DNA of 64,000 bases from an uncultured Cytophagales bacterium (GTDB taxonomy: Bacteria; Bacteroidota; Bacteroidia; Cytophagales; UBA9547), in contig CAMFLX010000002.1 in assembly GCA_945957555.1 (NCBI GenBank), forward strand, positions 62,001-126,000, given 5' to 3'. The notes under the pieces were generated by a model that was given only the letters and a program-made list of their open reading frames with translations, made no database searches and had not been told where the DNA came from. This document shows, in pieces, positions 8,387 through 11,561 of the stretch. A program made the translations under genes and the position numbers. Each line of letters starts with the position of its first letter. The first letter of the stretch is position 1.

Positions 8387-9895
8387 ATGAAACTAACATT
8401 TGTATCTCTCATTTTAATGTTCACCCAAATCATGACTGCCCAGCAGGACTTTCAAATCAAACAAATTTTGATGGATAAAGTGAATGGTGCTGGTTACAAT
8501 CTTGCCACAGATGGTAAGGACCTATTACTCACAGAATATGGTAAAGACAAGGTACATGCCTATCATTTAAAAGCCGATAGTACTTGGGAATATGTACAAA
8601 CACTGAGCCCCTCAGACAAGAAAGCAAATATCAGCAAATACTGGTACTACGGCTATGACATAGCAATGAGCGGCAATAACGCCATTATTGGTGCTTCCGA
8701 CAAAGGCACACAAAATGAAGACGGTGCTGTGTATTTTTACCACAAAGGCAATGACGGTCTCTGGCATGAAGAGGAAATTATTAATGTACCATTTGATACC
8801 TTGGCAAACACTGACTATTATTATGGTGGGCAAGGTTTAAATATGTATGGATCAACTGCCACCGCTTGCCAAAACAATGGTTTACCAAGGTATGTCCATA
8901 TTTTCAAAAGAGTTTCAGAAGGCAACTGGGAACTTACTGATACCATCTTAGACAAGGACAACATTGCCATATATAATGATAAGTCGTATTTTACAGACAG
9001 CTTGTATATATCGGGTGTTTATAAATACCAAAACCAACGCGTAAAAGAATATAAGTTAATGCCCAGCGGCACTTGGGTAAACACAGACACTGTAGACATT
9101 GGTATTACGGATAAAGACACCTATTTTGGAAACGACGTAGTAGTAGAAGGCAATTTAATGGCCGTGGGTGCCTACAACTATGATGTAGAAAGCACTGAAG
9201 GTCCGTTGAAAAATGCAGGAGCCGTATTTTTGTACGAGCGCATAAAAGGCAAGTGGAGCCTTATACAAACTTTAACAGAAAAGACTCCAGCACAATATCA
9301 CTATTTTGGGGCATCATTGGCTTTGAAAAATGGTATGCTTGTAGTTGGGGCAACAGGTGTTAAAGATTCGGCAAATGTGAATACTGGAGCGGTATACATT
9401 TATAGAAAAATAGCTGGATCTTGGACACAGACCGAAAGAATAGCACCCAAAACACAAACCGCTCAATATGCAGAAGAGCTCTATATCAACCATTCGCAGA
9501 TCTTGGTGGCGAGTAGTGCTGGACTTTATGTATTGCAGGCCATGAAAGATTGTAATGGCGACAAATATGGAACGGCAGATTACAACAGTTGCGGAATCTG
9601 TGTAAACGGCAACACTGGAATTGATTCTCTTGCAAGCGAACAACAATGTGTGACGGGAATTGTAGAATTGACTCTGGAGAATAACTTGAAAGCTGCACCG
9701 AATCCCTTCAATGAAGAACTCATCTTAAACCTTCCCATTGGTTCGGAAGCGATTCTTGTAGACATACATGGCAAAAAAGTTATGACTAGGCTAGTCTCAG
9801 GCAAAACAAATACTTCAGGACTCACCAAAGGGATTTATTTTCTGAGCATTGAAGCTCCAGACAAAACGGAAGTGCAAAGACTGATCAAGTTTTAG
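8387..9895 (+). CDS. Secreted FG-GAP-like beta-propeller protein with T9SS sorting domain
   Basis: A 502-residue exported protein. Residues 1–18 are a signal peptide (MKLTFVSLILMFTQIMTA). About six repeats of the form YYGYDIAMSGNNAIIGA, DGAVYFYHKG and YFGASLALKNGMLVVGATG are FG-GAP/integrin-type propeller blades (residues ~20–390). A short Cys-rich linker, CNGDKYGTADYNSCGICVNG, follows. The last ~75 residues are a type A T9SS sorting domain: PNPFNEELILNLP, then ILVDIHGKKV and GIYFLSIEAP, ending in LIKF. The protein is therefore probably displayed on the surface or released through the type IX system. Binding partner unknown. Confidence 0.85.
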   Translation: MKLTFVSLILMFTQIMTAQQDFQIKQILMDKVNGAGYNLATDGKDLLLTEYGKDKVHAYHLKADSTWEYVQTLSPSDKKANISKYWYYGYDIAMSGNNAIIGASDKGTQNEDGAVYFYHKGNDGLWHEEEIINVPFDTLANTDYYYGGQGLNMYGSTATACQNNGLPRYVHIFKRVSEGNWELTDTILDKDNIAIYNDKSYFTDSLYISGVYKYQNQRVKEYKLMPSGTWVNTDTVDIGITDKDTYFGNDVVVEGNLMAVGAYNYDVESTEGPLKNAGAVFLYERIKGKWSLIQTLTEKTPAQYHYFGASLALKNGMLVVGATGVKDSANVNTGAVYIYRKIAGSWTQTERIAPKTQTAQYAEELYINHSQILVASSAGLYVLQAMKDCNGDKYGTADYNSCGICVNGNTGIDSLASEQQCVTGIVELTLENNLKAAPNPFNEELILNLPIGSEAILVDIHGKKVMTRLVSGKTNTSGLTKGIYFLSIEAPDKTEVQRLIKF

Positions 9896-9925
9896 GAAAC
9901 AGGTTAATAATTTTCTACTCATTTT

Positions 9926-9955
9926 TTTGAAGATCAAAAAAAATAAATACCTTTG
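9926..9955 (+). promoter_or_regulatory. Promoter of the tRNA leader transcript
   Basis: TTTG at 9926–9929 (-33) and TACCTTTG at 9948–9955 (-7, TAnnTTTG) are 18 bases apart, a near-perfect Bacteroidota promoter. The transcript would begin about 5–7 bases after 9955, at or next to the leader ATG at 9961, so the message may be leaderless. It is the only promoter I can find for the four tRNA genes. Confidence 0.75.
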
Positions 9956-9960
9956 CATTT

Positions 9961-10050
9961 ATGAAAGCACTTGTGGCAAAATATAGTTTTAGTTTTTATT
10001 GCTCGTTAAGCAAACGAACAAGCGAGACTACTATGTTTATCTACAACTAA
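9961..10050 (+). CDS. Putative 29-residue leader peptide of the tRNA operon
   Basis: An ATG-to-TAA frame of 29 codons starts five bases after the -7 element. It begins MKALVAK, and codons 8–14 (9982–10002) encode YSFSFYC. All seven codons are TAT, AGT, TTT or TGC and are read by tRNA-Tyr(GTA), tRNA-Ser(GCT), tRNA-Phe(GAA) and tRNA-Cys(GCA), exactly the four tRNAs encoded downstream. Over the whole frame, 11 of 29 codons are of this class (4 AGY, 3 TTT, 3 TAY, 1 TGC). The composition suggests a sensor of decoding speed rather than a working protein. No homologue is known to me. Expression is inferred from promoter placement. Confidence 0.7.
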   Translation: MKALVAKYSFSFYCSLSKRTSETTMFIYN

Positions 10051-10087
10051 AAATATTAGAGTCAAAAAGTAAACCGCTTGTTACGTT
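10002..10087 (+). promoter_or_regulatory. Alternative RNA pairings: candidate antiterminator of the tRNA operon
   Basis: Three mutually exclusive pairings can be read. 1:2 pairs 10002–10007 (CTCGTT) with 10021–10026 (AGCGAG, one G·U). 2:3 pairs 10013–10024 with 10075–10087, giving 12 base pairs with a single bulged A at 10083; it occupies the 5' arm of the terminator. 3:4 is the terminator 10071–10103. A ribosome held at the YSFSFYC codons would cover region 1 and free region 2 to form 2:3 (readthrough). One reaching the stop at 10048 would cover region 2 and allow 3:4. The pairing is read from sequence; the mechanism is inferred. Confidence 0.65.
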
Positions 10088-10109
10088 CAGTAGCAAGCGG
10101 TTTTTTTTT
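10071..10109 (+). terminator. Intrinsic terminator between leader ORF and tRNA genes (attenuator)
   Basis: A 14-bp stem (10071–10084 with 10090–10103, one T·G pair) has a five-base loop GTTCA, and nine T follow from 10101. Its end is only 14 bases before tRNA-Ser, leaving no room for another promoter. Transcription from 9926 must therefore pass through it to make the tRNAs. Confidence 0.9.
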
Positions 10110-10123
10110 GGCCTTTTGTATTT

Positions 10124-10210
10124 GGAGGATAGGCAAATGTTGGTTTGTTGCGGCATCCTGCTAAGATGTTTCGTGTAACAGCGGCGGCGGTTCGATTCCG
10201 CTGTCCTCCG
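10124..10210 (+). tRNA. tRNA-Ser(GCT)
   Basis: Acceptor GGAGGAT pairs with GTCCTCC (one G·T), followed by discriminator G. The anticodon stem GCATC/GATGT has loop CTGCTAA, anticodon GCT, decoding AGC/AGT. The T arm is GGCGG–TTCGATT–CCGCT. The long variable region (~16 bases) is a type II tRNA feature. No CCA is encoded. Confidence 0.92.
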
Positions 10211-10215
10211 CAAAA

Positions 10216-10288
10216 GGAAGTGTAGCAAAGCTGGTCTATGCGTCGGTCTGAAAAACCGAAGATACAGGTTCGACTCCTGTCACTTCCA
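10216..10288 (+). tRNA. tRNA-Phe(GAA)
   Basis: Acceptor GGAAGTG/CACTTCC, discriminator A. The anticodon stem TCGGT/ACCGA has loop CTGAAAA, anticodon GAA. The T arm is ACAGG–TTCGACT–CCTGT. It starts five bases after tRNA-Ser. A regular cloverleaf of 73 bases. Confidence 0.95.
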
Positions 10289-10301
10289 CTATGAGTTAAT
10301 C

Positions 10302-10372
10302 GTTGGGTATACTCAATGGATGGGAACATGTCTGCAAAACGTGTATAGAGGGTTCGATTCCCTCCCCCATCT
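10302..10372 (+). tRNA. tRNA-Cys(GCA), atypical
   Basis: The 3' two-thirds is a normal tRNA: anticodon stem CATGT/ACGTG, loop CTGCAAA (anticodon GCA), variable TATA, T arm GAGGG–TTCGATT–CCCTC, 3' acceptor strand 10365–10371 and the U discriminator of tRNA-Cys. The 5' part is poor. The strand at the expected place, GTTGGGT (10302–10308), leaves mismatches at pairs 2–71 and 7–66. Position 8 is A rather than U, and the D stem has only three good pairs. GATGGG at 10319–10324 pairs perfectly with CCCATC at 10366–10371, which would give a D-arm-less form. Either a divergent functional tRNA or one in decay. Confidence 0.7.
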
Positions 10373-10380
10373 CTTTATCA

Positions 10381-10466
10381 GGGCAATCGGCTACGACGGT
10401 GGAGTAGCAGCGGACTGTAAATCCGCTACGTAGGAGACGCAGGGGGTTCGAATCCCTCATTGCCCA
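10381..10466 (+). tRNA. tRNA-Tyr(GTA)
   Basis: Acceptor GGGCAAT/ATTGCCC, discriminator A. The anticodon stem GCGGA/TCCGC has loop CTGTAAA, anticodon GTA. A long type II variable arm is present, and the T arm is GGGGG–TTCGAAT–CCCTC. Last gene of the operon. Confidence 0.95.
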
Positions 10467-10473
10467 CATAAAC

Positions 10474-10508
10474 AAAAAGGTCCGCCAGTTTTGCTAGCGG
10501 ACCTTTTT
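10474..10508. terminator. Bidirectional terminator between tRNA operon and recA
   Basis: AAAAAGGTCCGC at 10474–10485 pairs with GCGGACCTTTTT at 10497–10508. A/T runs lie on both sides, so it can end both the tRNA operon (+) and recA (-), which converge here. Confidence 0.9.
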
Positions 10509-10529
10509 ATTCTTATTCATTATGAGACA

Positions 10530-11561
10530 CTATTCCTCAGAAGTGTCTGTAGGAAGTACATCAGGTGTTACTTTTACCTTTTCGCGAATGGTCTTTTCGA
10601 TCTCGTCAAAAAGCTCTGGATTGTCAAGCAATATGCTCTTTACAGAATCACGTCCTTGCCCAAGCTTGTTACCTTTATAAGAGAACCAAGACCCTGATTT
10701 CTGGATGATCTCCAATTCCACACCCAAATCAAGCACCTCTCCTACTTTGGAAATTCCTTGACCGTACATAATATCGAACTCCACTACTTTAAACGGAGGC
10801 GCGACCTTGTTTTTAACCACTTTTACTTTGGTTCTGTTGCCTACAATGTCTTCACCATCTTTGATCTGTCCAATACGACGGATGTCTAAACGTACCGATG
10901 CGTAGAATTTAAGTGCATTACCACCGGTAGTAGTTTCTGGGTTACCAAACATTACGCCGATCTTGTCGCGCAACTGGTTGATAAAGATACAAGCACAACC
11001 AGTTTTATTGATTGCTCCTGTAAGTTTTCTAAGCGCCTGAGACATTAACCTTGCTTGGAGTCCCATCTTACTGTCTCCCATTTCGCCTTCAAGTTCGCCT
11101 TTAGGCACCAAAGCCGCCACAGAGTCAATTACGATGATATCTATAGCGCCAGAGCGAATCAAATGTTCGGCGATTTCAAGTGCTTGCTCGCCATTATCTG
11201 GCTGAGAGATCAACAGATTTTCAGTATCAATGCCCAATTTCTCAGCATATGTTTTGTCAAATGCGTGTTCTGCATCTATAAACGCCGCAATACCACCTTG
11301 CTTCTGGGCCTCTGCAATACAGTGGAGTGTAAGTGTCGTTTTACCAGAAGATTCTGGGCCGTAGATTTCGATAACCCTACCCCGTGGGATTCCGCCAATA
11401 CCCAAAGCAATATCCAAGCCTAGGGAACCTGTAGAAATCGCAGGTACGTCTACCACTTTGTTGTCACTGAGTTTCATTACGGTGCCTTTACCGTATTCCT
11501 TGTCTAATTTATCTATTACAAGCTGGAGTGCCTTAAGTTTTTCAACTTTTTCGTTTGCCAT
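10530..11561 (-). CDS. recA: RecA recombinase
   Basis: The DNA-strand exchange ATPase of homologous recombination and SOS co-protease. Walker [10 protein letters not shown] is at residues 68–76, the DAEHAFD segment near 100, Walker [11 protein letters not shown] near 145, and the L2 loop region [23 protein letters not shown] near 205–225. I start at the internal ATG 11559–11561 ([13 protein letters not shown], 343 residues), which matches the usual RecA start. The open frame extends 19 codons further, to 11618, but that extension is hydrophilic and not family-like. Promoter candidates on the minus strand are a TAACTTTG -7 element at 11639–11646 and a fuller promoter at 11770–11799. I see no convincing LexA box. 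Confidence 0.97.

Follow-up and report, generated by a model that had tools for sequence, protein, structure and literature searches.

In the attenuation of the trpL, hisL and pheL type (for the theory, see PMC1183508), a short leader is translated, and the stalling of the ribosome at its control codons decides between a terminator and an antiterminator that excludes it; the output of these systems is biosynthetic enzymes. T-box riboswitches likewise sense the status of tRNA via a terminator, but they bind the tRNA directly and need no translated ORF. Accessory tRNA genes can also be regulated by a protein: in Anabaena, the tRNAs of the trn operon are kept off by TrcR, a ribbon-helix-helix repressor, and are induced by translational stress (PMC10272220). 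As to phages, their tRNAs are reported to evade tRNA-cleaving defences, diverged tRNAs replacing the cleaved ones of the host (PMC10264068, PMC11555353); a strong promoter for a phage tRNA-Tyr was reported in one of these two papers, and in neither is there any mention of attenuation or of a leader peptide. Full-text searches of open papers (most subscription papers lie outside their coverage) returned no report of leader-peptide attenuation of tRNA genes, in agreement with the earlier note on this DNA, which knew of no described case. Since attenuation of the trp/his type is known, the novelty, as far as these searches go, lies in tRNA genes as its target.

The window analysed here is a stretch of 64,000 nucleotides from an uncultured Cytophagales bacterium (assembly GCA_945957555.1, contig CAMFLX010000002.1), in which ARAGORN called four tRNA genes, Ser(GCT), Phe(GAA), Cys(GCA) and Tyr(GTA), in this order (Table 1). 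This operon very probably represents a reserve set of tRNAs under ribosome-mediated transcription attenuation; judging from the sequence, it carries the defining features of such an attenuator that were tested, namely leader, terminator, exclusive antiterminator, protector and codon match. It resembles the trpL, hisL and pheL systems in its translated short leader, its control codons and its mutually exclusive structures, with a stall predicted to decide between them, and differs from them in that the output is tRNA genes and in that the control codons of this operon and its counterparts are a mixture covering two to nine amino acids, in line with the tRNAs that each operon encodes.

Table 1. 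Features of the accessory tRNA operon and its leader region (positions of the window).
Feature	Position	Strand	Details
Promoter-like site, Bacteroidota type	9926..9955	+	TTTG 9926-9929, 18 nt, TACCTTTG 9948-9955; consensus match only, from sequence; no evidence of function
Leader ORF MKALVAKYSFSFYCSLSKRTSETTMFIYN, 29 codons	9961..10050	+	ATG 9961, TAA 10048-10050
Control codons TAT AGT TTT AGT TTT TAT TGC (Y S F S F Y C)	9982..10002	+	Run of seven, operon's own tRNAs; P 1.2e-5
1:2 protector hairpin, predicted to sequester the antiterminator segment if no ribosome covers it	9999..10025	+	-5.0 kcal/mol
Antiterminator segment, predicted partner 10075-10087	10013..10024	+	Folding; beats dinucleotide shuffles, p=0.03
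Predicted intrinsic terminator (attenuator): 14-bp stem, 5-nt loop, T9	10071..10109	+	Stem 10071-10103, T9 10101-10109; -20.9 kcal/mol
Accessory tRNA-Ser(GCT)	10124..10211	+	ARAGORN; 55% identity to main copy
Accessory tRNA-Phe(GAA)	10216..10289	+	ARAGORN; compared with main copy
Accessory tRNA-Cys(GCA)	10302..10373	+	ARAGORN; compared with main copy
Accessory tRNA-Tyr(GTA)	10381..10467	+	ARAGORN; compared with main copy
Terminator-like inverted repeat at operon end, before recA (opposite strand)	10474..10508	.	From sequence

The promoter-like site, the 29-codon leader, the 14-bp terminator with its nine T and the order of the tRNA array are all as the earlier note had described them. The probability of at least seven successive matching codons in 28 is 1.2e-5, the background being the codon frequencies of the window itself (p = 0.13). 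It had been claimed that these seven codons are read only by the four tRNAs of the operon; the run does match these tRNAs, but main copies of all four occur elsewhere in the genome. The leader RNA folds well above shuffled sequences (z -5.96 and -4.73), and the leader stop lies 20 nt 5' of the terminator. In the computed nascent RNA, before the 3' arm of the terminator is made, positions 10013-10024 pair with 10075-10087 (-17.3 kcal/mol), and once a ribosome is past the antiterminator segment this pairing is gone (-1.1 kcal/mol left), so that the exclusive pairing originally proposed is borne out by folding. The predicted exposure of the antiterminator stops just 3' of the control codons. The proposed 1:2 pairing exists as well, in a register different from the one first given (about 9999-10007 with 10013-10025).

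In the genome of this bacterium (a 6.2 Mb draft in 413 contigs), the main Ser(GCT), Phe, Cys and Tyr tRNA genes are present elsewhere, and the window tRNAs share 55-64% identity with them. The presence of a main copy, diverged from each of the four, implies that the window operon is an accessory (reserve) set and not the sole source of these tRNAs. Hence the idea of leader-peptide attenuation through the operon's own tRNAs is supported as far as the attenuation goes and has to be amended as to the tRNAs: as these are second, diverged copies, the switch would read the total usable pool and add a reserve to it, rather than autoregulate sole genes. The same genome harbors a second accessory operon, Gln(TTG)-His(GTG)-Arg(ACG)-Leu(TAG), on contig C82, composed entirely of second copies and preceded by a promoter match, a leader MNIMYLHISQHQLRPQDEEWGYYVCRH (which begins MNIMYLHISQHQLRPQ) and a strong terminator. 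All eight accessory tRNAs have main copies in the genome (46-71% identity), and, among the tRNA transcription units of this genome that were checked, a leader and a nearby terminator occur together only in these two operons. Inspection by eye of position 37 in the anticodon loop revealed an A in all four CNN-reading accessory tRNAs of this genome, those for Gln, His, Arg(ACG) and Leu(TAG), and a G in their main copies (L056 vs L047/L039/L051/L248). The accessory Leu(TAG) of L056 is just 75 nt long, its long variable arm being absent. The interval that separates tRNA-Gln from the first terminator contains another short ORF, MKYLSLIYLAQPRKSSH (L056:1243-1480, contig C82), which likewise has codons for Leu, Gln, Arg and His and might belong to a second attenuator in tandem.

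Relatives were searched for a T-tract or 'GGCTTTTTT' directly 5' of a tRNA, and the matches were then inspected; the counts given below are therefore conditioned on a terminator adjoining the tRNA. Matching operons were found in other Cytophagales and in Balneolaceae. The earlier note had suggested comparing the upstream regions of related operons, and leader codons, terminator and alternative pairing do go together, in operons that are unrelated and whose tRNA sets differ widely. The family of the window bacterium has a Leu-(Ile)-Ser-Ser-Tyr operon with leader MANRKLYSLSWLSYSLV. An uncultured Microscilla harbors Cys-Leu arrays (leader ..TYCQLSLLQSL..), Ser-Tyr-Phe-Gln arrays (MKQYTYISFYQSSQQMFGYYSFSS), a Met-Pro-His-Arg-Ile operon (MIFPIRHIANTHTHRRNP) and a Lys-Trp-Asn operon (MSKNKVKHNKWWKYCLE, with the pattern KNKxKxNKWWK). 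Further cases are an operon of four Leu tRNAs with a Leu-rich leader (MSTSYTFFLLQLLALLLW), a Pro-Gln-His operon whose leader MITIQLHIHQPQQMP includes QLHIHQPQQ, a Gln operon (..QQ..), a Leu-Leu-Ser-Ser operon (MKTVKTYSLLSLSSLL) and the tRNA-Tyr genes of Balneolaceae, which have a conserved leader with YY. In each of the 19 bacterial cases the leader stop lies 19-45 nt 5' of the terminator; for the operons compared with that of the window the range is 19-49 nt. A similarity search with whole-operon DNA gave almost no matches, because the accessory tRNAs diverge fast. In one accessory array (L187, contig C52 of G054), a Lys-Trp-Lys-Asn unit is repeated three times behind a single leader.

The match between leader codons and the tRNAs of the same operon was scored over 15 independent operons, reaching 48.5 against a maximum of 37.9 when leaders were permuted over operons (none of 10^6 permutations as good). 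The operon's own tRNA set ranked first of 15 for 10 of the 15 leaders, the weak fits being Ile-Thr of Microscilla (rank 10/15), Cys-Ile (3/15) and Met-Cys. A fixed rule (an ATG ORF, 10-60 codons long, with its stop 15-60 nt 5' of the terminator), applied blind to all 191 tRNA clusters, kept 19 of them, and 0/500,000 permutations were as good. A rule taking the longest ORF regardless of distance picked the wrong leader three times (G003, G054 Lys-Trp and G105), and the permutation test was still significant. One cluster, Tyr-Lys-Phe-Asp-His-Arg-Gln-Met (G100:C15), was picked from the tRNA list before its upstream DNA was inspected; the predicted leader (MLYLYTYRLNDQMPFLRFEKQDNHLDFMAHSGMNRYFKRK, 22/39 codons matching, p=0.002) and hairpin (-23 kcal/mol) were found there, which we count as support for the codon match.

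Two of the 19 clusters kept by the rule look like false positives: at L042, tRNA-Trp is preceded by the end of a long gene, and at L249, tRNA-Leu(CAA) by an ORF. Moreover, no convincing leader was seen, despite a nearby terminator, at L147 (which follows an apparent ribosomal-protein gene), L150/L153/L158, L161/L162, L168 and several viral contigs, and none was found for the accessory-array-like clusters L288-L290 of G032. In the Thr(TGT)-Tyr-Gly-Thr operons L150, L153 and L158, a hairpin and a T-run lie at the start site, directly after the promoter, with no space for a leader ORF, which might mean control of another kind or else a signal for processing. Other peculiar tRNA loci were also observed. 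At L118-L120, L287 and L290, tRNA-like units form arrays in which GTGTCGTAG...TACTTC...TTGTTACC motifs recur. L289 (contig C44 of G032) has three tRNA-like genes side by side, for which the anticodons CTG, CTT and CTA are predicted; CTA would read the amber stop. At L175/L203 of G747 and L198 of G781, a unit of about 133 bp that combines the 3' end of a tRNA with a terminator and a spacer is repeated in tandem 3' of tRNA-Met or tRNA-Asn.

The behaviour of the switch was computed by folding, up to the terminator loop, the RNA left free by a ribosome stalled at each codon in turn, assuming a 13-nt ribosome edge and no pseudoknots, and by reading out the share of the terminator 5' arm paired upstream. 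Mean antiterminator exposure was 0.70 with the ribosome stalled on matching codons vs 0.23 at the stop codon, most leaders showing the drop within a few codons after the matching run. The antiterminator pairing exceeds that of dinucleotide-shuffled sequences in strength (Fisher p 4e-10), and the matching codons sit where a stall frees the antiterminator (Fisher p 7e-8), a position effect absent in two leaders, G262 and G154. The antiterminator still prevails in many leaders when the RNA carries no ribosome (mean 0.64); untranslated RNA might thus read through, and termination in these leaders would require translation of the leader, unlike in the superattenuated trp operon. The 1:2 protector is weak or absent in some relatives.

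Similar arrangements were found in phages. A 636-kb uncultured phage has a tRNA that shares 83.5% identity with the window tRNA-Ser(GCT), a degenerate core of which also occurs on 15 IMG/VR contigs; most of the arrays on these contigs lack a leader. Among these sequences, one siphophage, with capsid, protease and head-tail genes, has a leader MQNQSLYSLLSLCYSKDSQEGV before Leu-Leu-Tyr-Ser-Cys-Ser; an RNA ligase gene (phrog_14301) adjoins this attenuator-bearing tRNA operon (L311:3761-4423). A scan of IMG/VR gave 33 clusters with a terminator and an ATG ORF, which 0/500,000 permutations match as well, 14 of the 33 being judged by eye to have no convincing codon match. The computed switch profile of the viral leaders is the same as that of the bacterial ones, and the phage identity of several contigs was confirmed by structural or packaging genes. 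One of the viral contigs is the cultured Cellulophaga phage phi4:1. Both in this phage and in phi38:1 the tRNA array is split into three groups, each with its own leader and terminator: Pro-Glu-Gln-His-Leu-Arg (leaders MKIQRLHLQELEQP and MNVTLLHQEPLEQLRLP in phi4:1 and phi38:1, respectively), Ala-Lys-Ile-Gly-Met-Asp-Thr-Val-Arg (VQLTKTGITVIDKTKGARAY and MKTIMNIATDIRTKGVK) and a Ser/Asn/Phe group, which in phi4:1 also comprises Tyr and Trp (MKTNYCTYNNSNWSFSY and MKTNMTYNNFSWYSNCSFSSY). In the 3x3 score matrices of both phages, whose leaders were hand-selected from the sequence (the second phi4:1 leader requires a GTG start), the diagonals are positive (2.2-4.0) and the off-diagonals negative. 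The predicted leader of the Ala-Lys-Ile-Gly group is contained in phi4:1 gp075, annotated as hypothetical (L470:3990-4109). The tRNA region of T4 has no such attenuator.

We propose that RNA polymerase would start near 9957-9960 and that the leader would be translated during synthesis. If Ser(AGY), Phe, Cys and Tyr tRNAs are plentiful, the ribosome would pass position 10002 and cover 10013-10024; after its passage the 1:2 hairpin would form, and the terminator would stop transcription. If any of the four is missing or unusable, the ribosome would stall at the control codons, leaving 10013-10024 free to pair with 10075-10087; no terminator would then form, and the four accessory tRNAs would be transcribed. 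The nearest functional analogue appears to be the trn operon of Anabaena (PMC10272220), likewise an accessory tRNA operon, with the difference that a leader peptide is predicted here in place of the repressor TrcR, the window operon being predicted to stay off until a shortage.

A remaining question concerns the signal to which such a switch might respond. While the attenuation is well supported by sequence, we infer the biological trigger with less certainty, favouring the loss of tRNA, for example through anticodon nucleases in a phage-host conflict, over amino-acid starvation. Codons mixed for up to nine amino acids, together with a tRNA output, make a shortage of usable tRNA the most sensible signal. 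The accessory tRNAs are, from their sequences, diverged and phage-like, and this divergence, the A at position 37, the RNA ligase adjoining the operon of one phage and the published data on phage tRNAs that overcome tRNA-cleaving defences (PMC10264068, PMC11555353) suggest that they may replace cleaved tRNAs. We would give roughly even chances to the broader idea that a regulated tRNA reserve is widespread and common to the phages of Bacteroidota and some Bacteroidota, with phage-type tRNAs sorted by operon, each leader sampling its own supply and the replacements released only after destruction, as an inducible answer to tRNA-cleaving immunity.

It is also possible, if on the whole rather doubtful, that no nuclease is involved and that the accessory tRNAs boost phage or host translation whenever codon demand exceeds supply. 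Such a function would fit leaders that sense the pool of usable tRNA regardless of what depletes it, and near-complete tRNA sets in phages may replace a decaying host pool; taken alone, however, it leaves unexplained the strong divergence of the tRNAs, including the A for G at position 37 in Gln, His, Arg and Leu. We consider it unlikely that the leaders are starvation sensors in the trp/his style, reporting low charging with the tRNA genes merely as output. A stalled ribosome cannot tell an uncharged tRNA from an absent one and the layout is that of amino-acid operons, but the leaders of phi4:1 and phi38:1 combine codons of as many as nine amino acids that share no pathway, extra tRNA is no cure for a lack of amino acids, and the outputs are diverged tRNAs of phage type. 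That the short ORF and its composition are due to chance, the hairpin being the ordinary terminator of an upstream transcript, is very improbable: L042 and L249 do look so, but the permutation results refute it as a general explanation, the exclusive pairing is present, and no second promoter site is seen in the window sequence between the terminator and tRNA-Ser, where the earlier note had seen no room for one. Control by a T-box or another known riboswitch can practically be dismissed since, even though a T-box also senses tRNA charging via a terminator, an Rfam search of positions 9700-10800 gave no T-box or other cis-regulatory match above the cut-off.

If tRNA genes are controlled through the reading of codons, the decoding machinery would feed back directly on the supply of tRNA, and the system offers a natural set of tRNA-specific sensors. 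Its presence in cultured phages provides a testable account of why and when phages use tRNA arrays. Finally, many of the short "hypothetical" ORFs located 5' of tRNA arrays, such as the leader within phi4:1 gp075, may be regulators.
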